Assembly (NCBI RefSeq): GCF_036785885.1
Contig: NC_092317.1
Location: 1,552,501-1,616,500, forward strand
Source: Coffea arabica
Taxonomy: Eukaryota; Streptophyta; Magnoliopsida; Gentianales; Rubiaceae
DNA length: 64,000 nucleotides
Reading direction: 5' to 3'
Notes under the pieces: generated by a model
Seen by the model: the letters and a program-made list of their open reading frames with translations, nothing else
What the model was told of the DNA's origin: nothing
Databases searched by the model: none
Part shown: one piece after another, positions 363 through 63,947 of the stretch
Position numbering within the stretch: the first letter of the stretch is position 1
How the letters are laid out: each line of letters begins with the position of its first letter
Translations under genes and position numbers: made by a program

Positions 363-5770
<5,408 letters not shown>

Positions 5771-6980: not shown

Positions 6981-9900
6981 CTAAATGCCTGCCGCTCTTC
7001 CTAATCTTTTTCTTAATATCTTCACTCCCATGTATCTGCACGAAACAAAAAATGAAATCCTTGTTGTAAGTGCTTCCAGTAGCTCTTTAAAACGTCATAT
7101 TCACACAAAAAGATAGATACAGTTATGATGCGGTGTGTATTTTGCCCGTAGAAAAATCACAGAGTATACTCGCATATCTATATATTTTGATTACCTTCCC
7201 ATCATCATCACTGTGGCTTGAGGATTAGTGCCTGGAGAATCTCTGAATATTGAACCATCCACGACACGGAGCCTTTGGACACCGAGGACCTTATAATCAG
7301 GACCTACCACCTTGCCGACGTGACATCCACCATGGTAGTGCCAAATTGTGACTACAGTGTCTCTACAGAACTGCTCCAAGAACTTGGTGTCATTTGTTTG
7401 CTTTGGTATGAGGTTAACATTGGCCTGCACGCTCATATTGAGCACCTTCTCAATCGTTTCTTTCTTGCACTGTGAGATATTGGTGAAACGGTTTGAGTTT
7501 ACAATCTTCTCCATAATGCGTATACCATTGACACATTTCTGTAAATCACGAGGATGGCTGAAGTAGTTGAAGGTGATGGAGGGGTTGTCGTCAACATTGG
7601 TGTTGATCAGGCTAATTTTGCCTGTTGACAAAGGCCTGGCAATCTTTTCTAAAATGAAACCTCCCTTGAAGACTTCATGTGGAAGGTCTCTTTTTCTTTT
7701 TCTGTATGCTTGAATTGCCTCTTGTGTTCTTAGTTTTGGTGGAATTGTAGAAAGCTGCCCAAGCTGAGTAATGACAATATCAGAGCACATTAACTTCAAT
7801 ATGAAAGAGAAATAACAGGCCACTGGCCCAGTGGCCCAGTGGTCCAGTGGCAGCATCACAATAACCATCCATTATGTATCAAGAGAAACCAATACCAAAT
7901 GGAAATTGATTTTACTACTCACCTCAGCTGAAAGGATTCCATGATGGCACTGAATGCTGTCCGTGGACTGTCCAAATCCACTGCTGGCTTCAATGTACAC
8001 TCCCATCTTGGTAATTCCAACAGTCTGTATAAGCGACTGTTGAACAGGGCCATTGGTGGGAATGAAGATTGTGTTGAGGGGGTTATCAGCCATCCCTTTC
8101 CCTACAAATGGATTGTTAAGCACCGTAGGTATGTTAAATTTCTTAAGGTCTGCTTTTGGTCCGATCCCACTAAGAAGCAGGAGTTGAGGGCTCCCAATCG
8201 CTCCACTGGACAATATAATTTCACTCCTCGTATCCCTTGATAGGAATGCTCGATGTTGGATACCCTTTTCATCTTTGAAGATGACTCCGGTGGCCCTAGG
8301 CCTTTTCCCTGTACCAAACACACTTAATCATGATTTTTTACAAGAAGGCCACTATAACTAGCTAGTGGTGACAATTGCACATCTTCAGATTATCGGTAAG
8401 CGGTGATCTTTTGGTAATTACATACCCCTTGTGTCAAAGACAATTTTCTGAACAGTTGCATGTATCAATACACTGAGCTTTTCAGGGTTGGCAGAGGCAA
8501 GTAGCTCGGCAGCTGTGTGACGGCGGCCGAATCTGTCGAAGATGGTACCACCAACCTTGGTTCCATATAAATGATCATAGGTGAAGCCATTAAACGGGGA
8601 TATACCAACTTCTAGGAGACTGTCCCTTAATGCCTGCTGCCAAGGTGCAAGGTCTGGCTTGTGAACAACTTGTTTTTCAACCCAGGGGTAGGACTCATTC
8701 ACCAGTTTTTCATCCCAACCTACTTCCCTGATGTAACTGCAAATTTGAAGAGTTTTTTTTAATTTTAACATGTTCACGAGTCACCTCCATCAAATATACG
8801 TGGAAGTATAACACTCAGCAAAGGATTATTTCAGCGCACCAAGGATTCCTTGACGAAAATCACAAGTCGTCTATGAGGGTTCCTACTGATTACTCGCTAA
8901 TTCAATGGACGTATGCTCTAATAGTAACTTTTTCAATTCATGTGTCAATTTGCTATGCTAACTAACTGATGCATTTATATGCAGTTAAACGAGGTGAGAA
9001 TGGTTAGAAATGCAGAGTCTGATAGTTTTAATGCGGTCACCTACTGGAAAGGGAGGTGCAATGTGGGGCTGAGAGCGAAAGGACTCGTGCTAATATTAGT
9101 AATAGTAATAGGTTGGAGATCCATGCACAGGGACGGACAACTATAGCACTAGTATCTAATTAGTAACGATTATAACGTTGTCTGGGGTGGTAGTTGGGAC
9201 TGGGGGACCTCTTTTGCTATGGGAACCCATAAATGCTTCGTTGGTCTTTGAATTTATGTTGCACCTAATCACTTTTGATTCTAGACAAAGACAAAGAAGC
9301 AGATTAATTCAGCCCAAAAAGAAACAAAAAAAGGGGTTTCCACAAGCGACGGGTTGGGGCATTGAACACTCGGGGATATGAGGGCCTCCCTGGCATTCAA
9401 TACCAAGCACCAAATATAAATAAAGATGTCAGAAACTCATAAATGTTCTGATCAGGGTCGGATGACAATTCATGAAGTTGCTGTGTTACCATTTAATAAT
9501 TTCTTCTTGGAACGTTTCGTTGGGAATTTGGTCATTCGGATTTGGGAGCCAATTAATGTAGTGTCATGATTCGGGGAGTGATATAATTTTCATTTCCATA
9601 GTCCCATATATGGTATATGCATATATATATAGACCAACCACACAGGCTTGTGCGATGCTACTACAGTACTATTTTATGTTATGAATGATGGACCATAACA
9701 CTTCTTGTGTGGTGTGGGTTGCGAGTTTATGACTTCTGAATGCACGAATTTTGACAAAGACGTCCATTCGAAAAGCAAGACAGAGACTTGAGGTGCTTGC
9801 ATGCATTAATGCAACACATTATACTAGATAATGAAGTTGACTTACCAGAAAACAACTAAGCTCACATTTAGGGAAAGAAAAGGGCAACAAAATATGTATA

Positions 9901-32021: not shown

Positions 32022-35000
32022 TCAGTCAATCTTCACAGAGGAGTAGATCTTCCGCACAAACCAGAAGCAAGCATAGAACCCAATTGTTCCCGTTAACACA
32101 AAGAAGGCATATGATGCTATTAACATATAACCAAAGTACAAAATGCCTGAAACTAGCTTTGTAATTTCCAACTTGGTGAAGAAGTAGAAAACAGAGTAAA
32201 GGAAAAGGTATAGAGAAGAGGAACCAGCAGTGAGATAAGCCCTCCACCACCAGTGATAGTCTTCACTGCAGAGCTGGAAATAGCAGAGAACGATGGTAAT
32301 CTCTGCACATGTGATTATTAAGATCACGAAAACAATGAAAAGGAAGCCAAAGATGTAGTAGAACTGGTTCAGCCATATTGAAGTCAAGATGAAGAACAGT
32401 TCAATGAACACAGCCCCAAATGGAAGTATCCCTCCAATAAGAATGGAGAATATTGGTTTCATGTACCACGCTTGCTCAGGTATCTGTCGAGGTATTTTGT
32501 TGGTCTTTACAGGGTCTTCAATAGCTGGTTTCTTGAAACCCAAATAACTACCAACGAAAACTAATGGAACTGAAATGCCGAACCACAAACACACAAGAGC
32601 AAACATAGTCCCAAAGGGAACTGCTCCGGAAGATTTCTCCCCCCAAATGAGAGCATTCAGAACAAAGAAGACAGCAAAAAGAATACCGGGAAACATAAAT
32701 GCCGTCTTCAGGGTATTCCTCTTCCACTCTGTTCCCTTAAACATTTTATACAAACGAGCTGAGAAATAGCCAGCAAATAAGCCCATAAAAACCCAAAGGA
32801 GAACCATGGCTGTCATTAGTCCACCTCTGTTTGAAGGTGATAAAAAACCTAGCAGTGCAAATATCATAGTCACAAGTGTCATCGCAAAGACCTGAACACC
32901 AGTTCCCACATACACACACAGTAAGCCAGAATTTATGGGTGCCCTGAAAACATCTCCATGAACAAGTTTCCATCCTGTTTCTTCCTGAGCTTCATCCTGT
33001 GTTTCCAACTGATTATAGTTAGCAATATCTCTGTACAGAGTTCTCATCATGATCATGGCAACCATCCCAGAAAGGAAGAGGACAATCATCAAAGAGTTTA
33101 TGATGGAAAACCAGTGGATCTGATCGTCATTCATGAGAAGGTAAGTATCCCAACGAGATGCCCACTTAATATCACTTTCCTGAAAGGATAAAGGAGTATA
33201 CACACGAACTGAGAAGCAGCTAAGATGGATTAACATCAATCAACAAGGGTTTTACCAATACGTACCTTGAAAGTAACATCATATGTAAAAACCACCTCCT
33301 TATTTGTATCTACTTCCTGTGGAACAGTACTTCCTTGAACTAGATTTTTGGTGTTCTGGTTGCACGTAGACACCTGTGGATTCTTCTCATCCCACTCCTT
33401 ATACTCATGATTAATGCTGTAATTATAAGCTGAGTCAGGCGTAGCCAGCTCTAAACAATCAAAAGCTACACTCCATCCTAAACTGATCATCAACATGCTC
33501 TATTTCCAATAAAGATTCCAGTATTATAAATTAGTATTTGACAATGTTCATTTTTCTGAACTTTGATAGGTATGCTGGAACAACAGGAAGCAATTATATG
33601 AACCAGGAAGACGAAAATGTTTAAAACAGAAAGGGCAGTTAGAATGCAGAAACCTGTTTGGGGTGACTTCAAAACCAACAATCCGTGCAGAATCCATTTC
33701 CTGGTCTTTATGGTACATGACTTTAAAGCTTAAGTGGTTATTGATAAAATACTTCTCTTCTTTACTCTGTACAAAGCCAGAAAATGCACAAAATGTCATA
33801 CAAAATTTCATTCATCAAGCATTACAAAGAGCTGCTCAACGCACTAACCCCTGCATAATTCCCCTTGAACCCAACACGGAAGCCATGTTCATATGTGGTT
33901 GACGGACTTCCATCACGCCTTTGTCTAATAACAGCAACTGGAAGGTTATCCAGAATCCTGCAGTACATTGCAGAAACAAACACAGAATAAACTAGGACAA
34001 CAAACTACGATTCTCATTTAAAGCGTCTATTAAAGTATTGAGAAAAGAAAAACCCATGGGAAGAACATACATGTTCACCCTATATTCATCATCAATTTTT
34101 TCTTTGAAATTCTTAGCAGCTTCAGCATCAAGCTTCATTCGACAAGCCACCTTGCATGGTGTCTCATGCCTCATTTCAAACTGGTTCACAAGGCAATGAC
34201 CCCAATTAGCATGGCTAAACACGATCATTCAGAAAAATACTCCACAAATAAAGTCTAAAAGAAGCCACAATCCAGAACAAGAAGGAAACTGCAAGTTACT
34301 TACTTTATAAACTGAGTTCTCTATGCGGTCACCTCGAAGGACCTCCCCTAAGTTTTCTGCACTGTTCTCAATAGTTTCTGGTTTGCAGTACTTCAAGTAG
34401 TAGTAGTCATAAGGAAGTTGCGTCTTTGTAGAAGACAGCTTGTTCACTTTAACGAAAAGCCTGTCACCCTGTTCAACAGGAAAGGAAAAAAAAAACACAC
34501 ACACACACACACAACTCCCTTGTTAGTGAAAGAGCAAGATAGCCTCAAGAAACACACAAAATGGAATAACCAAAGCTCAAGTGAGGCAACACATTCTCCA
34601 TCAAGAAACTTCCTCTGAAATGGTTGAATAGCTAAACCACGATCCAAAATCTAATATTTGTAAGGATAAAAACACGAGCATGTAATACTGCCGAGGTAAA
34701 ATCACAATAATGTTCTCAGTCCCACTCCCCAGACCATAAGCTCAAATAAACAAAATGTCAACGTGGAATTCAAGGTTAGAACCCAATAAGCACAAGTTAT
34801 GCAAAAGCAATTCTATATCATGAGCCATAATGCATCAAAAGTTGTACAATTTTCTTTTAACACACTCGTCATACAAGATACTTGGGATGACTCGACTCTA
34901 CAGTGAATTACTATCAAATTCAATCAAGATCACACCAATATTTACAATCTAAATTCCCGGTTATAAATCAGTTTCTGATTCATCAATCCTCGTTAGAAGA

Positions 35001-38689: not shown

Positions 38690-41600
38690 TCAAGAAGCAC
38701 ACTCACTTAGATGAACTTTAAACTTGTCCAGCTCTTCGAGAACCTCCTCTTCTGATCTGTAAATTAGGTCAATCATCCGCCATATCTGCATCATCAACCA
38801 AATTGAAAGCATCAACCTTTTGAAAGAGGCATGAATTGCGAGATGATCATAAGGAACATGGGACATTTTATCCGAAGAAAAAGGAGCACCAACTATGGGC
38901 AAGAATGCAAAAGCAAGACGGTGGAGCATCAACTTGCGCTTTTTGTGCAAGTTTAGCTGCCAAGTTTATAGCATCATCAAGGATTCACGTATGTCACACC
39001 TATCTTGAACTAAATTACATATACAACTTATTATTTCACACTTAAATGCAGATCTCAATTTCCACTCAAAATGCAAGATAGCAAGCACATAAAAGATGAC
39101 AACTGAGCAGCAACCCATCAAAAATACTAGCGAAAATATATAGTCCTTCATTAGCGTCCAAGAAAATAAATCAATGTTGCTACCTGCAGAGTACCACCGC
39201 CACCAGTACTCTCACCATCATCGGAGACGCTCACAATAGTCCACGGATCCGATACATTCCAATGAAAATCAACAACCTTGTCCCTAAAATTATTAATAAG
39301 AGGGTCATTACTTTCATATTAGCAATTCCATAAATCAGCCAGCAACTAAAATCAAAGTTTGTCTTCAGTAAAACCTGAAGAGATGGGCAATCAACTAGCT
39401 AGAGGAGTAACATAACAGGATTGCCATTCACAACATAAATTAACAATTGCAAACAAGATCCCACAATAATTTCCCCAAACAAATACCCCCTCCCCCAAAA
39501 TTTTAAAGAAAAATATAGAAAAGGGGGAGATGAATTTCAGAAAATAGATATCAAGTCAATTGCCCTACTTAGGTCTATGGTGATGTCCAAGTCCAAAGGT
39601 CAAAAGTAGCACTGTCATGCGAATTCTTCATATTGGATGAAACAACAAAGAAGCTATGTATTGGACAAGATGAAGTTACCTGTGCCCAGCATGCCGGAAA
39701 AATAATCCAGGGGGAGCATTTGGCGCTTTTGTTCTAGCTGGGTTCTGCTTACCAATCTGGTTAAAAAATTAACCTCGTCAAAGTTACATGCAGTAACCAT
39801 ACAGTAAGAAGATTCATTCTAGAAAAAACAAAGACGCAAATTTATAAGTCCTCCACAAACATCATAAGTTTTCAGAAAACACAACCAAGTCAAAGCTAGA
39901 GACCAAAATTTGATGCAAGTTTATTCTCAAGTGCTACTTTAACCAATTCAATCCTGCCACTGCCTTCCTGTTTGAATACAGGCAACATCTTACCATCAGA
40001 TCTCACTATTTTCAAAACCTTAAAATCAACAATGCACTGCCCTCTTACTTGTCAAGGAGCTCACGGTAGATGTTAGACACAAGCTAGAGCCCCTTTCCAC
40101 ATCGATTAAGTCTTTTCATTTTATAATTGGCACTGCATGCACTTCAGCTTGAAATTTCTTTTAAGTATTTTCACAGAGACAGTAGCAAACAAGTACCATG
40201 GTGACATACCCCTTCATAATCCCAGAGATTCAAGATGCCATCCTCTGCAGAACTTCCAAATACAGAACATTTGTGTGGAGACCACTGCACCAGATGAAAA
40301 AATATCATTGACTGGTGGGAATTCCAAGCCAATAAAACAACATATTTCATCTCTTCAAATGAATAAGACTAAGGAGATGATGAAGAGAACCACCCCCCCC
40401 CCCCAAAAAAAAAAAAAAAAAGCATCGAAATAACCATCCTGATACCTGTACGCATAAGACAGCAGCACTGTGACCTTCAAAAGTGTGGACAGGGGACCCA
40501 ACTCCTCCTGAAGTTAGGTTTCGGCGGTCAAACATGCGCACAGAGTTATCAGCCGACCTGAAAGATGCCAGTCAATTCCACAAGACAGATTTAGAAAATA
40601 GACAGTAAAAAGTTCATCTATAGGAAAGAAAATTAGTGGGACACAACTAGAGCAAAACTTAGGAATAGGCACAAATAGAGCAGTACATTCAAGTACTTGC
40701 AACCAAACAGTTCCCAAAACACAAGTTTCAAATGGTCAATACTAAAAAAGAGATGTATGTATTACCCGGTCAGAATAAAATGTGTGTCATGAGGGCTCCA
40801 ATCAACACAATGGAGATCAGCATTATGAGCCTTTTCAACCTGCAAGAGAGCAGCCAAGATCTCAAAGGCCAGTAAATGATACACTAATCCTCTGACCATA
40901 CAGTAACTAAAACTTTCATCAAAATATGCCAAAACCCATAAAACCAATAATCTTGATGATGATAATTTTTTCTTCAAACTGCCCCAGGTAAAGCTAAAAC
41001 CCGAAAGAACCCAAGCATATTTGGTTCTGTTCAACAAAACTACATCCTTTGGTGCCATGTCACCTCCTGAAACCCTTGGCTACAAGAAAGGCACATAACC
41101 AAAAGAGTACTGTCATGCATCTGTAATTGCTCACTACAAACTTCCACATCCTCACAAACTACTCATAGTCTTTCGCTGAAACCATATTCAGTTTGCAACA
41201 ACCCACAAATAGATAAGATTCCTCCCCCAAGATTTCTCCTTACAAACTCTATGTCATTAGAACACAATCATGGAATTCCATTAACTGCAATTGAATCAAG
41301 AGATGCATTTTGACTGATGTTAACCGGAACAGAAAAGAAAAAGTTTACAGAAATCGTCAAAATGTTGAAATCCGTCTTGAACTGGTCACACTTAAGTTGG
41401 TAATGAAGAAAATGGTCAAGTGAAAGAGCACAGTGGTCGAAACTACCAATTGCAGCTTTTGACTTATTCAAAAGAGCTCACCCACCCACCCTCCCCCCAA
41501 CAAAAAAAAGAGATGAAAAAAAGGCAGACAATCACAAAGAAGAAAAGGTTCAGATAAAAAAAGTGAAGCATACACATGTGAAAAGTTGAAAAATACATAT

Positions 41601-44600
41601 TTATGCTCCCAACTAGATTCTTGTACAAGATAAATAGCTACATCTTCTGTCTGACAGATCAAACCAAACAGTCATCATTTGGTTTTTGAACATGATCTTA
41701 ATCTGTAACTTGCAGAAAAGGGGGTCAAAGAGGAAACAAGTTCAAGATTACATCCCAAAGTTGATCATAGATAATAAACAAGGGTAAAGCTCTCAACTCA
41801 AACAGAACAAAAACAGTTATTATGAAAATTGAAAGCATAAAAATATGGTTAACCAAATGAAACAGAATAAAAGTTATAAGCTGTCAAGTTCAGTAATTTT
41901 GCATGCATTCATGATTTTGCAGAATCATACTTAAGCTATTATCTTCTTAATATCCACCTAGTGAGCTCTTCAATATAGATTTAGAGCATCGAAATACTGA
42001 AATTCAATAAAATATAAGTGGAGAATAAATGACCTTAGTAACAGGAGCTGAACCACTTCTTGCATCCCAGAGTATGAGGCATGAATCATCACCAACACTG
42101 CAAAACTCCTGCGAACTTCATTAGAAAATTTCCACGTCAACGAAAAGTGAATTTGAATGGTTCCACGCTAAAGCTGTCTTATGAGCATATAGAAGCAAGC
42201 TTCTTCATATGCTATTCATAGATTGTCTTCCTGAGTAAACTTTTAGCTACAAGTCATCAAATGGTAGATTCACATCATGCCAAAGAAAGAATTACATCAA
42301 CTCAGAATGCACTAGTTACCTTGAGGGGCAAAACTGAACATCTTCAACAGTATCCTCGTGTCCTTGGAAAACACCTCGAGCATGGACACGAGGACCATCA
42401 ACACGTTTATCATCAACTCCAAGCTTTGACTGCTTAGTGTTCGCAGCTCCAGATCCTGGAGATTTTGTAGCACTCTGATCAGCTGCCAAAGAGGAGATAT
42501 GGTCATGAATGCTCCATAAAACAACTGACTTGTCTTTCCCTGCCAGAAGATTTTTGCAGAATCAGCATATACAAGCTCATAAATATCTTCTGTAGACCAA
42601 ATACCATCCTCAGAAGACAAAAAAAGGAAGAGAAGGAATAAGACAGTTAAAGAACTGGAGCATATATTTATCAGTTTGCATTCCATCAGGTCTCAATAAT
42701 TATCTCAAGCAACAAATTCATAAGAAAATATTAGTTTTCTAAAATAGGAAAGCATTAGAGTATTAATCATTGAACCTCCAGAGAGGACAAAAGGCTCTGT
42801 CTGACACATGGCAAGTGCAAATTCTGCATCGTCCTGATGGCCAGTGAGTATCTGAAAAGTAAGGATTATCAGCTTTCAGCACCTAAAAGGGTAGCAACTC
42901 ACTACACTATCTACTCAAAAATAAAACCTAATGTAGTTATATTAAAAGCAAATGTTACCAAATCGATTAAGCTTTGCTCATCAATAGCAACTTTAAAAGC
43001 CCTATTGATGTATAAGGATTGACAAAAACTGATAACACAAGAAAAACTACCAGGGAGAAAAACTAAATTTTGTTTTCTGTACCAAGTCCGGACAAGATTC
43101 TGAGGCTCCCAAGACAGCATGACGATTAGGCTGAGACTCAACATCCCAAATGAGAACCTGGATGAAAATTTTATTAACTTTGACCAGTCAACCTTCAAAA
43201 TATTAGAGACTATCAACACAAAGGAAAAGAAGAAAATTAGAACTGCAACAGATAAATCAAGGGCTTACATCAGGACTATCAGTATGTGTGGCCACAATCT
43301 TACTGTTCTGTGGTAGCTCCCTAATTCGGTTTACCTTCAATAAATTCATAAGACGTTATCACATTTAGCACAAAATCAATAACCGAGTATTCCCAACTGA
43401 ACTTATATGGGAACAGCAGGGCACATCTACACTCATAGAAATCAAATTTCAATTAACCAGTAGGCGAAAGCATGTACAGCAATGGGAGGGCAAGCAAAAA
43501 GTTGTTCAACAGGACTGCAGTTTATACAAAATTTCAATTTCCACTTAGCAAGGACAAAGGATATCTGAAATTTCATACAATCTTCAATTTGAACAGCATT
43601 ACTTTGCAACTTTTACATACCCCAAAAGCTTAAATTTTAAAAATACGACATACATCTGATATATAATATGCCACTAAAGTACTTAAACATATCATATCTA
43701 AAATGGGAAGTTACATACTATTTCTTCAGTTGTGCTGAATACATCGCTTCTCTGGACGAGAAAGCACAACAAAATCTTCAATCTTAATTCAGACTCTTAG
43801 AACTGATCCCAGATGCCAATTAGAAATCATAGTAAAGAATAGCTAAAAAATGTTACACAGTTTTGGAAAGTAATTAAAGGAAACGAAGACATCTTTATCC
43901 TCAGTTCAACCCTCCATATAGAAAAACAGTCATGCTAGGCAGAAGTTGTCAACAAGATACAAGTATATTAACTTGGGTACATGTACCACAAACACATATG
44001 ATGAGGTACCATAAATGAAATGGTAATAAGGCAGGGGAGAAATAAGAATATGCATCATGAGAACAGCTAAAGATATAAGTACCTCTCCAGGATGTATGAT
44101 GGTCTTGAACTTCTTTACAAATGGTGAACGTGCTTCTTCATTAAACTGATAGAATCACAATGGAGTTGCAGAAAAGATCAATGATGCAAATTTAGTATAA
44201 ATACCAGAGTGCAAATGGAAAAATGCTTCCAAGGAATAAACAAGAAGCAGAAGTAGAAATGACTAAAGGAAGACACATCTTTGTATCAGCACATCACCCA
44301 CCTGTGATATGTGTTCAGCTGCTGCTACCCGAGGCTTTACAACTTCACAGTTTGCAATGACAAGTGTATTTGGAACACTAACGTCAGTCTGGAAGGAGAG
44401 CAAGAAAAGAGTACAACATCAGTATTGGAAGTAAAACAAAAAACAAGACATCATTATTCTAAGCCCGATGTTTATCTTCATTCAACAAACTACAAATTCA
44501 ACATCATTGTCCCACATCAACAATGCCATTAACTTCATAAATAAGGAACCAACAGTTGCTATTGTCCCAGAATCTACACATAAATCAAGAAAATGGCTCT

Positions 44601-47600
44601 CCCTCCCACCCTCTGAAACTTTCTTTGCAGTTTGTAGCTCTAAGCATGTCTTGGTACAAGATGAATGGTTTATCAACAGGCCCAGCTCAGACATTCACAA
44701 ATATCATCTAATTAATACTTGAAAGCATGCTACAATGCTATCCAACATGCCTAATGAACTCTCAACACTTTTATGTCCCCGGTCAACACTCATTGATGTC
44801 ACCGTCAAAGTGATTTGTTCACTCCCTAGTGCTTATATGGGATTGATAACAAAGTAAATGAAAAGCTAAAGTTTATGACAGACAAAATTCTGAATGCAGC
44901 TATTGCAACCCCAAAGTTGAAACATGTGGTGCAGAACACATAATGCTTTTAATGGTTCATAGAATAGATTTTCATGGGACAAAAACAACATTTGGCCATT
45001 CTTTGCTACTACGCTATCAAAATCTATCATGAAATGTCAAAAACTGAAAACAGATTGTCTTGCCTGTTCAGAAAGGTAGAGACGTTGCCGATTCTTGTAG
45101 GTTGCTTGCTCCAGTTGTGGCCCCCACCTGTATGATGGAGAGAGAGAATGTAAAGATGTTTTGCATTTAACAAGAATCAACAACTTGCAACCAATGAAAG
45201 AAAAAATGCCAATTAAAAAAAAAAGTATTGGCTACTGAAAGCATCAACCTACGGTGACCAACAAAATTATGAAAGTTTTTCACAACAAAAGATGGCAAAC
45301 AATGGAACTGCATTGAAACACTAAAGATCCTAGCAAAACATATAGGTAAAATGTACAAGGAGAAAAGAAGTGGATTGTGCAGACCGGCAAGATTGTGATG
45401 GCCATCTCAAGGAATGGTGAGTGAACCAATCATAAAGAACAAGAACGAATTCGCACAGTTTTTCATAATGATCTTTTACAGAAAATGGTTTAAGCTTTCC
45501 CTTCGAGCCATCAATCTCTTTTGTCCCTTTCCCATTCTCCATCACTCTCACACTGCTTCACTTGCTCTAAAATTTGGTCAATTTAGTTTCTCCATTTCTC
45601 ACCCTTCACACACAACATATAAAGAGCAAAAACAAACAAAAATACATCCCTCTGAAGCCTGACATTTATGATACCATAAACTGAAAATCTAATGCAGGGC
45701 CCAGCACTTTATGGCAATAAATCTATACCAAGAAAACACCAAAAAAAAACAATACTCCTAAGGTAGGAAAATATAAAAAAAAAAGGAAAGAACATAACCA
45801 TGTAGGGCCCAAAATAATAAATGTACAACTATAAAAGAATATACACTGTGTGAGGCCCCCGTACACCCGTCCCACATCAAGACGGAGAAGGAAAAGGAAA
45901 GGAAATATAACATCCATCCTATCGGATTACTAATAGCTTTGGGTTAACCATTTTGAACTCGTGGTTTCAGCTCAAAAAATTATTGGGCTAGCCCGTTGGG
46001 CGTGGAGCATTACAAATGGTATTAGAGCAAACCTCGCGTGATCTCTGCGTGGGCTGAGCCTAGGGCCAAGTAGTGTTATGTTTCCGACTATGCAAGGAAG
46101 TGCAAGGAGCTAAGTGTTGTGCAGGGCTAAGTGCCACATTTGATGGGAGACACCTCTAGAACCTACGAGATTAAGTGCCACGTGGGGCGGGGCCATCTCT
46201 AGAGCCCACGCACGACTTGGTGGACAGTGTGGATTCTAACAAGTTTTGCGAGGACGCAAAGTCCTTAAGTGGGAGTGAGTGTAAGGCCTCCATACATCTG
46301 TCCCATATCGGGATAGAGAAGTAAAAGGAAAGGAAATATAATGTCCAACCTGTCGCATTACTAATAACTTTGGGTTAATCATTTTGAGCCAGTGGTTTCA
46401 GTTCAAAAAGTTACTGGGCTAGCCTATTAGGCACAGGGCATTACACTATGACAAATCAAAATACAACCACATAATACCAGCGTCATAAAACTAGGGTCCA
46501 ATCCTGAGGACAATGAACAAAAATTAATGACTCAATATAAGTAGTGTTAAAAACCTGAAAAGAAGATCAATGACACAAATTTCATGACAAAAGACATAAC
46601 AAGAACATGCTGAATCAAGCTTTATTGCAAAGAACCAAATTTATGATGAAAGATGAAGAGATATTATGAGAAACCACAGAATGGATACAGTAACATTCTA
46701 AACAATTAGAGTGGATCAAACCATCACCGTAACAGGAAAAAGACGCAAGTCACGGAATTCTTGAATACCCTAAACTGACCAGATTAAAGCCAAGAGGGTT
46801 TTCTAGCCACAAATTGACCTCATTATCCCTGTAACCTGAATCTGCAAATAAAGCAACGTAAAAAGAATTTCAAAGGTGGGAAAAACAGCTATTTACCTAA
46901 TTGTCCTTACCAAAAGTACTTAAAGACCAGAATGAAACAGCTTCTCCAATCTCCTATTTGACTTCTTTATGTATCTTGAACTATTCTAGACCCAGAAATT
47001 GGGATAAGGCAGCATGTCTGTCGCATACGTTAGACAGCACAACAGTATATGCAAAGAGAATTAAGAGTACTAGAGACTGAATGTTTAAGAAAAGAAAGAC
47101 GGTTTCTACAAGTACTATGAAATTCATCATTATGGCCACTGAAGTCAAAAGCTCAACAAGAGGGAGCTTAAGCGCAAAGCTAAAAGCAAAATTGCAAGTC
47201 ATTAGGCCTACTAGCACTTGAAATGCAACACACTTGAAAAAAAGCATTGTAGCCTTCACTACGATAGAAAAAGACAAGGATTCTAGAAGTACCTATTTTC
47301 TGGTTCCTTCAACTATATTTTAAAAAATTTTGATATATTTGGATTTCAACTTGGGTTATTGATATTCATGCTAATGCGATAAAAGCATGGAATACCATTA
47401 GTTTCGGGGTGATGTACAATCATTCTATTTTTCCAAATAATTGCAAGATATAATCAGAATTCGAAAGAATGATGGGTGATGGGTATTTAAACTATTGCTA
47501 CAAATAATGCAAGATATGGTGAAAACTAGATGACTGATATGAACATGCTTTTCATCTCAATCAACTTTGCACTTGGAGTATTGGGTTAACAATTCTATGC

Positions 47601-48405
47601 AACTTATGCACCATCGTCTACCAGACAAACAACTAAATACTTAATTTCATCCTACTAGAAAATTACAATAAATCCCCAGAAGCAGAGCAGAATCAGCTCC
47701 AGCAGACACACTTAAAATGCCCTTCCCGTTCCCTTATCACACCATGTCTAAACTCTCATGGTAAACTGCATAAATGCTGTCCATTTTCACTAACTGCACA
47801 AGGACTCCGTTGCATACGGCCGGTGAAATGTGTGTTTCTAACACATCTCAAGCATCAGTAATCAACAGACAAAACCAGGAACTCCAAGCTAATGCCCGTC
47901 CTAATAGCCTTCCACGAAAAGGACACCAAAATGGAATTTACAAGAACATTAATAGTTATGAGCCTCACAATGTAGTTAACATTTTTCCGTCCTAGTTAAA
48001 TCCACATAAAAAAATAAAGTACAAACCATTGGTGTTCCCCGAGCACTATAGCAATAAATATCAAGTTTAACTCAATGCCCACCTTTTTCAGCCTAATACT
48101 TATGAATACAATTAAGTATAGAACAAAAATTAACTTATAATTCACATAAACCAACAAAAGTTGAGAAATATATGAAAGATTAAAAACTACATTAACGAGA
48201 AATGGAACCCTAGAAAGATAATCAAGATATAGAGTGTGTTTCTTTGGACGGACCGGCAAGAGAGGGAGGGCCAAACAAGGTTATGATTGGCAAGCCAATC
48301 GTAGAGAACAGGGACGAGTGATTTCCATTGAGTGTAACGCTCATCCACCGACGGCTGTGCTCCTCCTCCTCCTCCGCCCTTTCCTCCTACTCTGCCTTCC
48401 TTCAT
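38690..48405 (-). CDS. MSI4: FVE/MSI4 WD40 histone-binding protein
   Basis: Fifteen exons: 48405-48254, 45127-45064, 44388-44302, 44145-44083, 43334-43269, 43157-43083, 42851-42776, 42539-42320, 42115-42034, 40839-40766, 40557-40446, 40284-40210, 39756-39680, 39283-39184, 38785-38690; 472 aa. The N-terminal helix (VLYDWLANHNLVWPSLSCR) that binds histone H4 is followed by a seven-bladed WD40 propeller; blade ends such as VLIWDV, VVLWSI, LILWDA, LNLWDY and LQIWRM are visible. Exon 8 encodes the variable Ser/Lys-rich insert. Arabidopsis FVE works with histone deacetylase HDA6 and related complexes to repress FLC and in cold response. The start is the first ATG in frame; a GTG at 48444 directly follows a stop and is not used. 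The protein lacks the basic KKRGRKPK-type extension of Arabidopsis FVE. Intron 2 has a GC donor. Exon 9 uses an AG followed 7 bases later by a second AG that would break the frame. Confidence 0.9.
45385..45542 (-). other. Candidate alternative first exon (1b) of FVE/MSI4
   Basis: An ATG-initiated frame of 52 codons plus two bases ends at a GT donor with the same TCTTGCCG junction and phase as the regular first exon. In ungapped alignment its last 33 residues match the exon at 48254-48405 at 17 positions, including VLYDW, H, L, WPS and SCR. It lies 257 bases upstream of exon 2, so splicing would give a full FVE with a different N-terminus. There are no stops. A weak TATATG lies at about 45616-45623. 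It could be a used alternative exon or a relic of tandem duplication. Confidence 0.6.
45849..46445 (+). mobile_element. TRIM retrotransposon (597 bp) in FVE intron 1
   Basis: Two direct repeats of 166 bp each (45849-46014 and 46280-46445) begin TGTGAGGCC or TGTAAGGCC and end CATTACA, the TG...CA form of LTRs. Two bases after the left LTR, TGGTATTAGAGC (46017-46028) matches the initiator-Met tRNA primer-binding site. AAGTGGGAGTGAG just before the right LTR serves as polypurine tract. The 265-bp interior has no coding capacity. The flanks CACTG and CTATG match at only 3 of 5 positions, so the target duplication is eroded or the ends have drifted. The LTRs carry no 5S-like sequence, so this is not Cassandra. 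Confidence 0.88.
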
Positions 48406-49953: not shown

Positions 49954-50466
49954 CTCCAAAGTCAATGATACAAAAGTGTAAGAGCTATGGAACAGGTTCT
50001 TGTTTATGGCCCTTCGATTGGCAGATGGATCTTTCACAGCCCATAAAAGGCAAGGGACCTGTAGGATTCGATTTAAAATCTCTCAGCCAACCGGTTAGGT
50101 TACATCATATATCTATCACAAAAAATCCCTAACGTCAAAATATATCTAAATATATCTTATCTGATATGAAAAAAGAAAAGCAACAATTTACAGCACTCTT
50201 TTGGTTCCAGGGAACCATAAGAAGATAAATCAAAGAAAAGAAGCAAAACCGGACATCATGGTTAGAGAGAGAACCAAAAAAAGCGTATACCAAAATATAG
50301 TTTTGCTTTATGCAGGACGGATTAGCTTCCTAGCTTAAAATTGAGATTTCATTTTAACCTCAATTGAAATAACCACAGAGAAGCACCGGCAGCTATTAAA
50401 AAAATAAAAAGAAAACAAACCTGCAGCAGTGGATTACACATAGTTAAAAGTGAAACGATAAAGTAG

Positions 50467-53400
50467 TTAGCAAAAACGTTGTCCTGAAATTGAGCAGGAT
50501 CGACTTTTGCCATTCCTCTGCCTGCATGTAGAAGAATCTCAACGTTAGCATCAACCTGCTGAAACGAAACAATGGTTGAAATATGAGAATAGAGACCAAC
50601 CAAAAAGCATCTTTCTTTTCTTGCGCTAATAACTCTTCAAATGAAATATCCGCAAACTCATCATCTGTTCTCTCCACTTGCTCGCGATGTTTGTCTTCCG
50701 CTTCCATGCGGGCACCAATTTCAAGTAGCTTCAATACAAACGTCCAGGAAGAGATGGTTAGGTCTTCAACAAAAAAAAGCATGAAGAGACATTAATATGA
50801 CCAAGCAACAAAAGAGGCTGATGCACATGCTCAATAAAGGAACAAAAATTTTCAGAGCCAAGCATCTCTGTATAATTGTTTTTCTTGATCATATGATATT
50901 CTTGCTCAACTATTGACTTTAGTGCGAAAAATTGGTTGTTTCTAGTGCTCCTGCATCCTAGACCTGTGGTTTCTCCTCAATCTGGCATACCCAACATATA
51001 CATCAGTTTCATACGGTTCTGGAAGAAAACTTTTGAAAGATATTGTGAGACCAGATCAGCTCCTTTTGTTGTAATTTGGGACTAGTCATAATCTCCAGCA
51101 TAGATTGATTGCCGCGTAATAGTTTTAGTTGGGCACTTTGTGACTTGTTTCATCCTTGATCATGATATTCTGATTCTTAACTTCTGGCTCCAACTGAAAT
51201 AGTATAGGCTCTCTTGCTGCCTTCTTCATAGTTAAGATTTTGCAGACGGATATATGCAAGTAATTTTAGCCGCTGAAAACCTTCAAGGCAATAATGGCTT
51301 TGTAGTCTGATTTTTGTTTCAGATTTCAAAAACCGATTTATGGTTGTTGGAGAGAATTATTCTTTATACTCTGATTTGTGGCAACTTGATTATCTCTGTG
51401 CAAGTTTGAGCCAAGATGAAAATATTAACATACCTTCTTGTAAGCTGAGGAGACCTTCAATTGTTGTTGGAGCCAATTATATACAACAGCATCCTCTTCC
51501 AATCGTCTTTGCTCTAACTCTAGCTTGTAAATCTACATAAACCCAAGGATACATTGCATTAGCAACATGAAAAGATGAAAAAGGTATTTCTCAGACATGA
51601 GAAATCACTCCAAGCACGAACCTGTTGATGCAAGCGGTCAAATGAAGACCTGTCAGCCTTCAGCAGTAAAGCCTTTGTAATCGTAAATTTACGTTGGATG
51701 ACCTCTGATCTGCTCATAAGATTGAAGCAGCCATTCAAGAGTCAATAATTTTATATCTTTGTATCAAGTGCATTTACAACATAAAACTTGTTCTCAAACT
51801 CTCTACATTTTTTAATGAACCTAGAGATCTGAAGCTCGCCATAGCATAAATGAACTCTTTTTCTTTAGTATCAGACTATCAGAAAATTGGGGGTAAACTG
51901 CTGCTATCAGATTGTCTCACAGCGTTGGGGATCCTTGTCCTTTGTCCTTTGTATTGTAAAATTTACTGATCCTTATTAACCCTAGCAGAAAAAAAAAAGA
52001 CTAGAAAACACACATTTATAGATACAAGAGTAGAAGTTTGGGCAAAACAAATCTAGTGATCCGCAGGTTGTTACTTGATTCAAACTTCAAAACAAAGTAC
52101 CTATGTTTTAGCTCTTTCTTTGCCTCAACCAAGCAATTAACAAACTGCCCAACCTGCATAACATAATAATAAAGCAAATCTTAATTAGTTCAAATAGCTG
52201 AGACCTGTGAGCAACTCATGTATAGAAGGAAAAGAGGTACTTGAGGAAACAAAGATAACTTTCACATTGTGGTAATTTACGTCAGAGTAGAGTATTATGC
52301 TAATAAAACATGAAAAGCCGCGACCACGCAATTTTATGGAATTTGCACTGTGTTAATTGAGCACCATGCATTTTTACCAATGGATGCTGCATGCTTCTAC
52401 CTGCAAAATACTCACAACTTGTTCTAATGTGACACCCAAGGCAGCTAATGCTACCATATGATGCAAGGTGGATATAATTGAGGTGGGCTACACAGACATA
52501 ATGAAGTTGTTGTGAAGCTTTAAAACCAATAAAGTTGACATACATTCGAGCAATTGTATGTTTATTACTGCATTAAAACTGGCTTAGGGCTTCAATGAAC
52601 CACCCCGACAATAAATCATAACGGCCTGAGTATTAATTCCAAAAACTTTTAGCTTTACCTCCTCATAATGGTTTAGAAAGCTCAACAGAAGCATGCTAGA
52701 AAATCAGATTGCTAGCTCCAAGCTCGTGATAATGATCAACCAAGAAAGTCACGTATTTGTTTAAATTAAATACATTCACCAACCCCAAAACGTAGTTCCA
52801 AGTTCAGTAAAGCCAAAACAAATATTCCTCAGCCATTGGATTTCATTGACATTTTAGAGAAAGATGCATACAACAGTTAAATAACGGTCACTTCCTTCAC
52901 ATAATGTAGAAAGAGACAAAATTATTCATCAGCAATGCAATGTGATAAAGTTTAATTCCATACAATGGGTAAGATACATCAGTCTGGAAAAAGAAATGAC
53001 CAATCTTTCTTCGCGAGTATTCACAACAAGACTGAATTAGTGGCGAGCTGAAATTCATTTTAAAAAAAAAAAAAGAAAAGAAAACCTGAGCAAGAGTCAA
53101 GGCGTTGGATTCATGGGACTTGGCAAGCTGGTCATAGTTTTGCTTGAGCTTCCTCTGAACTGCGCTAGACGAGGTCGTAAATGGATACAAACAAACCAGC
53201 TCTTCTTTCTTGTTATCCTTCTTCCTGTCGTGTTCCCCAGCTCCTCCACACGCACTACTAGGGTCGGGTCTCTTCTTCTTGGCCCGTTTCTTCCTCTTCT
53301 TCTTTGTCTCCTCCTCCTCCTCCTCCTCCTCTTCCTCATCTTCATCCCCAACCCGGCCTCCGTCGAGCACAGACCCATTTTTATTATCCGGGCCCTCATC

Positions 53401-57222: not shown

Positions 57223-60200
57223 GGCAAGGAGCATAGAAAGGAGAGCAAGTTGGTTGCTGGCTTACCATTTTTGTGAGGCCTCCCCACAATTACTGAGGCA
57301 TTTTTTCTCATTAAATGACCCAGCATAACTGCAGGCACCACAATTACCAGATGCTTTATATGCAGGATAATACCTTCCAATGCTCTGACCATTTATCCAC
57401 ACTTGACCTTTGCTCATGGCACTCATATCTAAAGCCAAAGGCTCATTTCCGGATGGAGCACTGAAAGTAGTCTGCAATTGCAAAGAAAAAGATACAAAAA
57501 CATTATGATTGTTATCAACCCTGAGATATTCCCCTGCCAAAGTGTTTTCCTTATGCCAAGAGCAAGGAATTGAACAGAAAGACGAACAATAGTTCCAAAA
57601 TACTTCTAATAGTAGGAGTAAGCACTTGAACAGAAGATATTAGACATCCTTGGTGCGCTATTAGCCCTCCCATCTTCCAAAACATTAAAGGATGTAGAAT
57701 ACCTTGTACCAGGTAAGTGGCTGCCTCTCGGCAACAAAAGAACCTTCACCCCACTCTACAGCAGAGCTCCCGCCAAGGGAATGTAGACTCAAGGCTTCTC
57801 CCTTCAGACCAACCTGATTAAAGCACCAAGTGAACTGCCAGTTATTGATTAAGACCATCACGTGAATTGACAGTGCTTTATTAAGACCATCAGGTGAATC
57901 GACAGCCACTCAATGATCAGGTATCAAATAATCATTTTGATTCAAAAACTGACCTTATAAGACCATTTCTGCCACGTTAGGTCTCTTCTCCCCTCATTAA
58001 GACCATAAAGTGAAACGGGCCCGAGAATACCAGCATTCCATGTTTCAAAATGGGGACCAACATTCTGAGCCCATACATGAACGATAAAGCAGAATAAGCA
58101 AATTTCAAACGCATATTGAGCAAGGTTTTTAAAAGCATGCCATGACAACCATGCAGTACATGCTTTATTCAAATTGCTCAAGATAGATAATATCATGCAT
58201 GGCTACATCAAATGCAAAAGAACTTTAAAACGTCTATGTGTGAAAGAGTGTGTGTGTGTGTGAGAGAGAGAGAAAGAGAGAGACAAACCGGGAGACCGAC
58301 AGCAATACTTAGGAGTGAAATCTTGTTAACTCCGGCCCTCAGATTTACACCTTGACTGAAAGTTATTTTCGGGTTTTCCAGACTACCATATATAGTTCCT
58401 GCCAATGTTTGAACACAGACATCAACAAACCATCATGATTATCAAATTTCCACCTGTTATGGGAACAAAAGCCGGACGAAGGAAGACATGACTATCTTCA
58501 ACTTGACAGAATATGGGGACAACTTTGCTGATATAATCTCCTAACTCTAAGGGTGAAGGAATCAAGTTCAAAATCAATAAAACAGCAGAATATTGTCTCC
58601 ATGCAACTTAAGGGAACATATATCTTTGAACTATATACTGATAACATTTTATTGACTCAAGTTTCACCTTGACATATCACTCTAAAGAAATAGTCAATTA
58701 GACAACTAGCCACCACATAACTTGCATAGAAAACAAAACATTCAATGATGTTCAATGTCTTGTTGCACACCTGATAGCTGACCATTGATGAAGACATGCA
58801 AAGCATGACCGGCTGACATAACTGTAAGAACAGGCCATTTTCCGCCTTTTAGAAATCCTTCGGTGTGGTAAATTCTCACTCTGAATAACAGAAACATAGG
58901 AGTTAAACCTCAAAATGAATCATCACAAAGTCAGCGTATCAGTATAGCTGTATGAGAGTAAAAATCAACAGAAAGAAGCACCTACTCTGTTGAATACCAC
59001 AAATAATCTGAATTATCTCTGGTGACATTTATCTGCTCCAACAACCCAGAAACTGTAAACGTGTTGTCTTCATATGATGCTGTTTCTTCATTGTATGACT
59101 CCCAAGAAAAGCCCTTAATAACAGGATTCATTTTCATCTGTGCACTTTGAGCACCAACCTTGCCATGAAAAATCAGTCTGATGTCAAGATTACATAGTGA
59201 AGAGGTCTTTTCATAAGGGACACAAACCCATAACGTAGTCGTGATAATCTACAGTCAGCAATAAGATAAAAGACATTAAAGTTCAATAACAGTTTCTCTT
59301 CCTCACCCTTGCAGTATTATACACAGTGTTCTTGCAGTCAGGAAGGATGCTGATAGACCAGGGAGGCAGGTTGTAGTGCATATTGCCAAAAGCAACCCTT
59401 GCAAAAGATTGAGAGTTGTAGTTGGCGAGAAATGCTGCACAAGCTCCAGATTTTGATTTAAAAACATGAGCCTGTAATGCAAAACTGAAAGTAAGAAAAA
59501 CGGTTGAACTCAATTTGTAATAGTGGCAAATGTAAGAGAATAAAAGTAATTGAAACCTCTTGATAATTTCCAAGAGGCGTCACAGTGGGATTTCCAGATA
59601 CTAGTGCTGGTTCGCAGAGCTTTAGTGCTCTATGTAAATCCTTAAGATGACCCCATTTGGGTTGCCGTAATAGTCCTGGAAGAAAACAGAAACTTTCATC
59701 AGTTTGAGCTGAGCAATCCAAAGCTCATTAGGCTTTTAACTGTCCCCATGCACTTGATACTGACAAAGGATCATTTCAGCTAGGAAGAATCATCCAGAGA
59801 ACAAAATATCAGATTCAGAAGGCAAAGAAAGCTTAATTTATTGCCAGTGTTAGACAGTACAGATCCATATAGCAGGATGAACATAGGATTTGTCACTCCT
59901 TTGGATAGTTTAGACCAGCTTTTACATTAAGATTTCATCAGACATCGAAGATAAGGACAGGATCCTAGTGGTCTTCTTAAACAAATAAGTCAATTATCAG
60001 ACTGCACCATTAGACACAAAAAAGTCGATAGACCGGCTTTGACATTTAGATTTCCTCAGACATCAAATGATAAGGAAAGGGTACATGTCTTTTCTCAAAT
60101 AAAAACAAGGTCAACCATCACAATGCACCATTAGGAAGACACTAAGGGTCAAAAATACATTTAAGACAAACAGAAAGTCAAGTCAAGACTTGCACTTCAC

Positions 60201-62752
60201 TCTTAGTAAAATGACGCACATGTCCAGTTTAAATGACATGGCAGACTGAGGCTTCTTAGGGGCTGACAAGTATGGCCACTATAAAAATAAATGCCAACCC
60301 AAAAGCTAGTTTCCCGCTAAAATGCAAACTCATATAGAAAACATTAGCATCTAGATGACATGAGGTGAATACTGCAAGCTTAGGACATGAGTTTAGGAGC
60401 TGGTGCAGTCTACATACCATATTCATCAAGAGGAGCATCATAATCATAGCTAGTGGCAATAAATGGTCCACCAGCTGTCCTGCCAAAGTTTGTTCCTCCA
60501 TGATACTGCCACAAAGACAGGAAATAAGAAGACAATCACAACTTCCAGTAATTTAGTAGGAATTTTCACAAGAATAATTTTTAAAACATTAAACTTTACC
60601 ATGTAATAATTAATAAAGGAACCCCCTTTTTGAATAAATTTTGCAACAGAAAATGCCAAGTCTTCAGCAGGACGGTAAGGTTGCGCACCTCCGAATTCAG
60701 TAAACCTGCAAAAAGAACAGATAAAAATAGAGTCACTTTCCTGTTATAAAACTCCAAGAATTATGTGAAACTACCTACCAAAAAGCAATAACTCACCAGC
60801 CAGTCCAAGCTTCCGTCCAAATCTTGGGTTTATAAGCCTTATTTGGGGAGAAGTAGTCGCAGTAGAAGCCATTGCATGTATTTATCTGGGCAGAAGTAAA
60901 ATAGACATGCGAAAACAGACGCTTAGAAGAAAAAAAATAACCGTAGTTGCAAAGACTAATAATCGGTAAAAAAGGAATCCTCTTGAGATAAAACTGAAGA
61001 AGTTCGATAAATAACAACAACCACAACTATTCAATTGGATAAGTACTTATGGATACTCATCCTAGGAGACAGGCAAGGAAGTATTTTGTAGCTGAACATC
61101 AGAAATCAGAGTTGAACGTTGAAAGTGGGAGTATATATGTAGTCAATGAAGGAACTGCGACGTCAATCAGCGACTCAGTCCGAATAGAATTCAAGATCCA
61201 ACCATATTTTAATCAAGACAAATTTGACAGATAGGATTGAGCAGAAAAAACCCATGTGCAGGGGCTCCAACAATTCAATCTCTTTTTGGGTCACAAAATG
61301 GACAAAACACTGGGTTCCAGAAACCCCACTATACTATGGGGGAACATGGCATGACAGCCATCAAGAACTAGAATAAGAGCATTGCAAGTACTCTAAGATT
61401 AATCAAAATGCAAAAAAGAAAAAGGTGGGTGGGGCGATGGGGCAAGGTTACTCACAACAGGATCAGGTGCGTCATCTTGCTTGCACATGACCCAAGGGAC
61501 ACCAGTGCCTAGATCCACAGCCATTTTGGCTGCCCATTCCGTATAAGCTCGACCAGGGGCACCTAATTCATACTCCATAGGCCCATATTCGTTCTCAACC
61601 TGCAAAATTATTCCAAAAAAAGCCTACCTTTTTCAGTTCACTTCCTTATTTTCCACACTTCAAATATTCCAGATACCAGAAAGAAAAAATGAAACTGGAC
61701 ATGAATAAACGGAAAGAAATTACTACCTGCGATAGGATTATTGGACCACCCTGAGGTTCATATAACCTCTCGGCTTTCATCATATTCACAATCTTGGTCG
61801 TGAATTTTTGCATTGCGGCCTTCGTTGCAGAATCATAGACACCAAAATTAGTTAGAATCGAATCATGTCAATGCAATATGGCAGTAAAGGAAATTAATAT
61901 CCTACAAACTTATTTGCCTGACCTTGAAAGGACCGTTGTTTGTTCTAAAGCTAATGCCCGGAACATACTTTAACCAAACTGGAAAACCCCTGAAAATTTA
62001 TTCAAGAAAAAAGTGACTCAGACCATAAACACTTCTCAAACAGCAGGAATTTTCTACTTCTGGAAACTGCATTACTTAAAGATTACCCAAAGTTCCATTC
62101 AGCACAGACATAAGGACCAATTCTGAGATTAACATAAAGCCCTGCTTCCTTCACCAGCTTGACAAATTTAACCAGATCATATCTACCCTCAAAGTAATAC
62201 TACAAAAGTAAAATACAAAAACTTTAGTATATATATCCAAGAAGTATTAGAGAAAAAAAAGTAAAGGGGGAAAAATACACCCAGTTCATCAATTACTTTG
62301 CCAGGTTGAGGTTCATGTCCATTCCAGAAAACATAAGTTTCGATCACGTCCAAGCCTCCCTCTTTTGCCTTCTGAATAAGATCCGGCCACATCTACCATA
62401 ACCCAAAACCAAGGATAAAAAACCGAACTTCATTGCAGAGTTCAGTAAGAAATGCCGAAGAGAGCAGTTGGTAAAGAGGGCACGAAAAAAAAAAAAAAAA
62501 AAAAAAGAAAAATAGAAAAGAAAGAGGCAAATAAGCAATGGGGATGAAGTACATTTGAGGTAAATATACCTCAGGAGTGCTTCTAGGATAATGAATGGAT
62601 CCAGATATAAGAATCCTCCTTTGGCCATTAACAATAATAGCCTTACTGTCATAGGAAACAGAAGCTGTTCCACAAGAAACCCATGAACCCAATAACACCA
62701 GCACCACCAAGGCCAAAACTTTCCACATTACAGAAACCTTGGAGAAAATCAT
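56380..62752 (-). CDS. BGAL1: Beta-galactosidase, GH35, BGAL1-like
   Basis: Nineteen exons: 62752-62570, 62392-62297, 62199-62087, 61989-61923, 61819-61727, 61599-61456, 60885-60797, 60705-60600, 60505-60418, 59675-59557, 59471-59307, 59158-58986, 58880-58771, 58398-58289, 58064-57954, 57813-57703, 57471-57266, 57125-56789, 56490-56380; 843 aa, close to Arabidopsis BGAL1 (847). A signal peptide (about 1-30) is followed by the GH35 domain with [15 protein letters not shown] (acid/base Glu188) and WTEAWTGWF (nucleophile Glu257), a galactose-binding beta-sandwich region ([13 protein letters not shown]), and a C-terminal SUEL-type lectin domain (about 750-843) ending in the Cys-rich [19 protein letters not shown]. 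Secreted enzymes of this subgroup trim beta-1,4-galactan and arabinogalactan side chains in the cell wall during growth and ripening. All splice sites are GT-AG and the frame is intact. Subgroup a1 (BGAL1/2/3) fits best; exact orthology needs a tree. Confidence 0.93.
57179..57219. repeat. (AG)n microsatellite in BGAL intron 17
   Basis: About 20 uninterrupted AG units lie inside the 140-bp intron between exons 17 and 18. Read on the gene strand it is a (CT)n pyrimidine run upstream of the acceptor. Confidence 0.95.
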
Positions 62753-63947
62753 TTCTAGGCATTAACTAAAACCCCTCCGTTAAAACTTTTCCTTCCCCCT
62801 TGTACCTCAAGCTTGTACCTTTACAATCTCAAAGCAAAGCACTCAGCCCTTTGTTTGGCCCTTTAGCCCTTTTCCCACCTCGCACTTTATTCTATACTAG
62901 TACTTGCTTTATTGGAGAGAGGGAGGAAAAAAACACAAAAAAAAACAGAAGAAATGAGTCAAAGAGGAAACAGCTGTTTTTCTTGTCTGAATTTTTCTAT
63001 TACTAGCACTATGATAGATAGTTTGCTTAGGTAGAGAGTTGCAATTTGCAGATGATAGTCCCCAGTAGTACAGGAGTGGTCAGTGAAGCGTGATAAATTG
63101 TGGACTAAGGTAGTGTACTACTTGAGAAGATGGGGTGCTTTGCAGCTGCTTTTAAACACAAAAATTGGACCTCGTTTGAAAGTGACATTCGGTCCCATTT
63201 TCAGGACTTTGGACCCCACTCATTACCATACCATTTTGGACTTTCCTCACTAGTAATAGTAATACTTACGCGGAGTCTCAACTCTCATCCGTTTTTTATT
63301 ATTATTATTATTATTTAAGTGAGGGTACTTCCTTCATTATTTACCATCCCTCCTTTCAAATTTTAAGTGAGCATTTAAGAAGGAAGATTGATGCTTGTAA
63401 GATTACTTTAAATTTTGATTTTTTAGATTTAAAAGGGCTTTTCTGCTGTCTGCTGAAAAGTGAATTAAAAAAAATTTCTTTTTTTTAACGCGTTTGATTA
63501 AAGCTCTGCTAGTGGGCAAGGATTCTCAGCCCAATCCCAATATGGTCGGTCCGCGCTTTTTGGCGAAGCCTCCCATGTTTGCTCTCTGATGGAATTTTAC
63601 CAGACAAGCCTTAGTGCGTCTACATCACTCGCGGGCAATTTGCCGCACATTATTGGGCTGTGCAGCCACGGACGCTTCCCACGCCAGGGAAGGCCTTCTT
63701 TTTTGTCCTTTTTAGTTTCTCCTCAGTAATGACGATTGCGATTTACGAGGAGTATGTTAAGTGTTAGTTAATAACATAAACAGTGCGTTTGTCACGGGTT
63801 TGGTTTTGTGCTTTCTTCGCTGTTAGCCATCCTAATAAATAATGCGTTTATCATCATTTTCTTAATCTAGGAATGATTGGTCTAAATTATTCGATCTGTT
63901 CTGTATTTAGACGAAGCATGTCAGTCTTAACAATCTACTGTATAATA
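62753..63947 (-). promoter_or_regulatory. Upstream region of the beta-galactosidase gene
   Basis: The first 200-300 bases should contain the leader and core promoter; TATAGAATAAA on the minus strand near 62891-62901 is a weak TATA candidate. Further out there is a (TTA)n run at about 63297-63314 and otherwise undistinguished AT-rich sequence. No gene was seen. Confidence 0.4.

Follow-up and report, generated by a model that had tools for sequence, protein, structure and literature searches.

FVE/MSI4, a homologue of RbAp48, acts together with HDA6 and FLD on FLC in flowering time (PMC4848314). The Coffea arabica locus described here raises the question why the first intron of this gene contains a second sequence that looks like a first coding exon, and whether this sequence codes, or once coded, for protein. 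The window is a stretch of 64,000 nucleotides (positions 1552501-1616500 of contig C8 in G000, a plant assembly of 1.198 Gb in 131 contigs). We refer to the regular first coding exon as 1A and to the candidate alternative first coding exon as 1B. Their positions and those of the associated features are listed in Table 1.

Table 1. Features of the FVE/MSI4 locus, in positions of the window
Feature	Position	Strand	Remarks
Exon 1A, regular first coding exon of FVE/MSI4	48405-48254	-	50 codons + CG; donor GTCCGT
Exon 1B, candidate alternative first coding exon	45542-45385	-	52 codons + CG; donor GTCTGC at 45384-45379
Exon 2, common acceptor ATACAG/G	45064..45127	-	for 1A and, if used, 1B
Exons 3-15, WD40 body of FVE/MSI4	38693..44388	-	spliced alignment; open to terminal TGA
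Putative 1B promoter region	45543..45847	-	directly upstream of 1B; expected place of any separate promoter
Miniature LTR-type (TRIM-like) element	45848..46445	+	between 1A and 1B; not part of the exon

The FVE/MSI4 gene, its regular first exon and a candidate second one

Spliced alignment to an Arabidopsis FVE template places the gene of the window on the minus strand, with 15 exons that form an open frame terminated by TGA. The arginine codon left incomplete by the first exon (CG/G) is completed by exon 2. On the homologous contig C7, exons 1-14, which is the part compared, are likewise open and comprise 440 codons versus 438 on C8. A difference of two residues between the homologous contigs lies in the glycine run of exon 1A, and the FVE protein shows four amino acid differences beyond this run. 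The donor of intron 2 (45063-45062) is GC (CAG/GCAAGA) on both contigs and GT in the paralogue on contig C12. Among the neighbouring frames of the window, Pfam families were matched by 5093-5767 (plus strand, protein kinase) and, on the minus strand, by 7194-7871 (GMC oxidoreductase), 32025-33239 (EMP70) and 57265-57639 (a piece of a beta-galactosidase); another beta-galactosidase piece (62396-62761, minus) scored below the family cut-off, and the frame 50447-50791 (minus) had no match in Pfam.

A paralogous FVE gene is located on contigs C11 and C12 (loci L031 and L029), and its model on C12 likewise has 15 exons and a first exon of the regular type. Unlike the gene of the window, it encodes a longer, basic N-terminal tail, has a first intron of about 0.6 kb and carries no 1B. 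The tail resembles that of Arabidopsis FVE. The FVE/MSI4 protein of the window begins with a short MKE-Gly-rich start.

The first-pass annotation had described 1B as an exon that starts with ATG, stays open and ends at CTTGCCG/GT in the same phase as 1A, and all of these features were confirmed. The reported agreement with 1A was also reproduced: in an ungapped alignment of a 33-codon core, 17/33 residues and 59/99 nucleotides are the same and 40/99 nucleotides differ. The conserved core is kept in 1B, whereas the histone-facing helix is altered, with 9 of codons 1-12 differing, again as the annotation had it. The local protein alignment of the two exons has a score of 94, compared with a mean of 20.4 (sd 4.0) and a maximum of 47 in 5000 shuffles, which rules out that 1B is an open frame by chance. 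When the 1.2-Gb genome was searched in six frames with 1B as query, six matches were returned, four of them non-self (E 0.0015 to 0.022), namely 1A on two contigs and the first exon of the paralogue on two contigs. Since these non-self matches are all FVE first exons, the similarity is not a chance one, and judged by sequence 1A and 1B are two homologous exons. An assembly artefact is disfavoured because 1B is present on both homologous contigs.

1A and 1B have the same phase, and each is compatible with the common exon 2. When spliced in silico onto exons 2-15, they yield frames of 469 and 471 codons, respectively, with no stop in either. 1B has its own start codon, and an in-frame TGA, read by eye, is the sixth codon 5′ of it, so that the 1B frame starts at its ATG or later. 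The donor (CCG/GTCTGC) is present but weak. With a matrix built from 27 donors of the two FVE genes it scored 2.16 versus 2.48 for the real donor of 1A, both of which are low among the donors of these genes, and among the 208 GT sites of intron 1, 31% equal or exceed the 1B donor in score.

Use of 1B as an internal cassette was considered and rejected, as a 158-nt block inserted after 1A shifts the frame. An in-frame cassette of 168 nt would require the AG at 45554-45553, which by eye has no pyrimidine tract. Because the 158-nt block breaks the frame, the simplest use of 1B would be as a first exon in place of 1A, transcribed from a start site of its own within the putative promoter region.

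Upstream of this region lies the miniature LTR-type element. Its direct repeats (45848-46014 and 46279-46445) differ at 31/167 positions, which suggests that the element is probably old. A primer-binding-like sequence, TGGTATTAGAGC, is found inside it at 46017-46028; we take it to match the initiator tRNA. Related copies are dispersed over the genome, 56 among the matches listed, with the element's own locus on both contigs included.

Age and possible coding constraint of exon 1B

As the alternative to a functional exon, the first-pass annotation had named a young, unused partial duplication. The divergence of 1B does not bear this out. Synonymous divergence (NG86 dS) is 1.6 between 1A and 1B, 1.8 between 1A and the paralogue and 1.9 between 1B and the paralogue, all of which are saturated, and the flanks of 1A and 1B show no clear homology (best E 0.87 upstream, no match downstream). 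The strongest flank match, between the upstream regions of 1B and the paralogue (E 0.006), is T-rich by eye. The corresponding dN values are 0.44 for 1A-1B, 0.09 for 1A-paralogue and 0.52 for 1B-paralogue. The saturated dS implies that 1B either goes back about as far as the split between FVE and its paralogue or is too old to be dated in this way, and on these distances we regard 1B as an old tandem duplicate, not a young one.

Searches for relatives of 1B gave no further copy in the material covered. In 15 kb of the C12 paralogue, tblastn with 1B found the regular first exon as the sole first-exon-like match (E 9e-8; next 4.4). A whole-genome DNA search with 1B plus 118 nt of upstream sequence returned the two homologous loci only, so that there is no processed 1B copy to serve as indirect proof of splicing. 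Among 14 pattern-matched viral and 52 genome stretches, none was confirmed by tblastn as a relative; these collections are non-plant, and absence there says nothing on plants. Degenerate WPS(L/Q)SCR/GT patterns occurred in 2 and 4 viral contigs, where tblastn of 1A and 1B reached a best E of 0.024.

The first-pass annotation had proposed dN/dS as a check on 1B, and the outcome depended on the test and on the part of the exon. Single-rate codon likelihood on the 1B branch gave p values of 0.18, 0.075 and 0.15 for 33 codons and of 0.53, 0.39 and 0.90 for 36 codons, in each case under three frequency models. In 5/6 of the free fits a branch length was driven to its upper limit, which indicates saturation, and tighter branch caps gave p values of 0.075 and 0.045. 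The asymptotic single-rate tests mostly did not reject neutrality of 1B (dN/dS 1). When the single-rate test was bootstrapped, the observed value was reached by 6/500 and 5/500 neutral data sets, and an earlier run had given P 0.017 on 300 data sets. The 27 changes unique to 1B are distributed nearly evenly over the three codon positions (11, 8, 8); 8 further sites differ in all three sequences (1A, 1B and the paralogue), and 7 of these are third positions.

Along the exon, dN/dS on the 1B branch is 0.76-1.45 for codons 1-12, the helix, and 0.14-0.25 for codons 13-33, which comprise the helix end and the propeller entry. Constraint in codons 13-33 is associated with 2dL values of 13.3 and 14.2, one for each of two branch caps. 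As the split between codons 12 and 13 was chosen after the data had been seen, the change-point was left floating in simulations; here, the observed maximum was attained in 1/500 neutral data sets at each of two kappa values. Since 1B was noticed through its similarity in the first place, we also simulated under six settings with 16-18 identical residues kept, and the change-point value was then reached by 1/900 and the single-rate value by 16/900 data sets. The change-point and the conditioned codon models exclude stop codons and indels.

Stops and indels were addressed by simulating neutral decay at the indel rate of the locus (in introns, 12 events for every 113 substitutions), with 40, 30 or 20 differences assigned to the 1B branch. 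A sequence with no stop, no indel and the GT kept was obtained in 0.04%, 0.2% and 1.8% of cases, respectively, compared with 23%, 28% and 37% for a stop-free core alone. At least 17 identical residues were retained in 0.07%, 18% and 98%; with the latter two frequencies under neutrality, residue identity alone proves nothing. As to the earlier expectation that a fossil would gather stops or lose its donor, freedom from stops is weak evidence when taken alone; that 1B was spared stops, indels and loss of the donor all at once counts against neutral decay.

Taken together, codon-level constraint on the 1B core appears supported, albeit by mixed tests: it is indicated for codons 13-33 and in the bootstrapped single-rate test, mostly not in the asymptotic ones and not in the helix codons. 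Our reading is that 1B probably has a long history as protein-coding sequence, with the entry strand held and the helix either free to change or changed.

Variation between the homologous contigs adds little to this. 1B is letter-for-letter the same on C7 and C8 (0/158 positions differ), and its flanks differ at 14/559 positions, 11 of them in the 302 upstream bases (45543-45844) and 3 in the 257 downstream bases. Zero differences in 1B would be expected with a chance of 0.019 at the flank rate and of 0.108 at the intron rate of the gene. Because 12% of the 158-bp windows that lie wholly within introns (664/5725) are equally free of substitutions, we count the invariance of 1B as weak, not significant. 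The 14 coding exons compared carry substitutions at 7/1314 bases versus 113/8033 in intron bases (Fisher p 0.0076).

Possible histories of exon 1B

We favour the explanation, at a probability of about 0.57, that 1B arose long ago by tandem duplication of the first exon of FVE/MSI4 and that it works, or for most of its existence worked, as an alternative to that exon. A transcript initiated within what is now intron 1 would have 1B as its first exon, and the phase-2 donor of 1B would be spliced to the common exon 2. The predicted product is the 471-codon form of FVE, in which the strand at the propeller entry is largely kept and the N-terminal helix is rewritten. Because both members of the pair are first exons, the choice between 1A and 1B would be made by the promoter and not by splicing alone.

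The main rival holds that 1B long served as an alternative first exon and has recently fallen into disuse, with stops and donor loss not yet accrued. Constraint of the core over the whole 1B branch, next to a helix part that is apparently unconstrained, would fit such a history, as would the weak donor, the LTR-type insertion about 300 nt upstream of 1B and the four residues that were lost in 1B and kept in seven other first-exon matches. Against it stand the frame, the ATG and the donor, all of which are intact, and, as a weak point, the identity of 1B on the two homologous contigs. We consider recent disuse possible but doubtful. A related history starts from a complete tandem FVE gene, of which unequal crossing-over removed everything but the first exon, now an alternative exon or a relic. 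Such a collapse would place two promoters and two first exons before one gene body, so that the same architecture is expected, and it explains coding constraint before the collapse. It requires more steps than duplication of a single exon, however, and in the intron between 1A and 1B no other FVE exon has left a significant trace (best E 2.3), which leaves this origin improbable.

Neutral evolution since the duplication, with a frame that is open by luck, is compatible with most of the asymptotic single-rate tests, with the nearly even spread of 1B-only changes over codon positions and with residue identity taken alone. It is at odds with the bootstrapped single-rate test and with both the change-point and the conditioned simulations, and it would demand that stops, indels and donor loss were jointly escaped, for which P is 0.0004 to 0.018. 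On these grounds this explanation was already disfavoured, and we judge it very improbable.

The histone H4 pocket and related systems

For RbAp46, the N-terminal helix Asp9-Pro28 has been described as one wall of the histone H4 pocket, with Trp23 interacting with H4 and with Phe29 and Leu30 in a hydrophobic patch, where L30Y disrupts binding (PMC2572730). Peptides of MTA1 and Su(z)12 occupy the same groove (PMC4139204). By comparison with RbAp46/RBBP7 as described there, 1A and 1B encode counterparts of this helix and of the entry strand that follows it, and in both of them Val-Leu occupies the site of the Phe29/Leu30 patch; 1B differs in having no counterparts of Trp23 and Pro28. In an alignment with RBBP4, 1A retains the Trp, the Lys, the Pro and the Leu of WPSL. 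Relative to 1A, these residues are changed in 1B (W to L, K to C, P to L and L to Q), and the Val-Leu of the patch position is retained. The losses of Trp and Lys hit the YxxWK motif, the Pro precedes VLYD and the Leu follows WPS. All four positions are kept in 7/7 other first-exon matches compared in this genome: 1A on C8, the paralogue on C11 and C12, and two MSI-type loci on two contigs each, with the weaker matches on C15 and C9 left out.

The Pfam domain CAF1C_H4-bd (PF12265; cut-off 22.7 bits) is recognized in both joined proteins, with 72.3 bits for the 1A form and 50.3 bits for the 1B form. With the exon alone, 1A passes at 39.1 bits and 1B fails at 17.4 bits. Since the counterpart helix of RbAp46 walls the H4 pocket, a 1B isoform would be expected to bind H4, or peptides that compete for its pocket, differently. 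A bolder version, which we think rather unlikely, is that a second promoter in intron 1 gives rise to an FVE/MSI4 isoform whose H4-pocket helix was rebuilt under selection unlike that on the propeller. If true, a partner-switched or histone-blind FVE would compete with the normal form in deacetylase and Polycomb-type complexes, and a promoter-controlled switch would be added to the flowering or cold response.

Among the open-access papers listed in literature searches, none was seen to report an alternative first exon of FVE/MSI4; most subscription papers and the gene-model databases lay outside this search, and an annotated isoform may already exist in the latter. A candidate alternative first exon that would swap the H4-pocket helix in a gene of the RBBP4 type appears to be new. 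If such an isoform exists, altered mainly in this helix, it would represent a natural experiment in which the scaffold function is set apart from histone binding.

Exclusive homologous or switching exons as such are already known in plants, and of the systems described in the sources consulted, FLM/MAF1 of Arabidopsis is the nearest to 1A/1B (PMC3266260). There, the exons are internal, the protein is a MADS-box factor and transcripts provide the evidence, whereas 1A and the candidate 1B are first exons of an RBBP4-type chaperone gene recognized in the genomic DNA. As 1A and 1B would, the exons of FLM/MAF1 form an exclusive pair in a flowering-time gene; their exchange switches a motif for protein interaction where the pair joins the shared exon that follows (PMC3266260).
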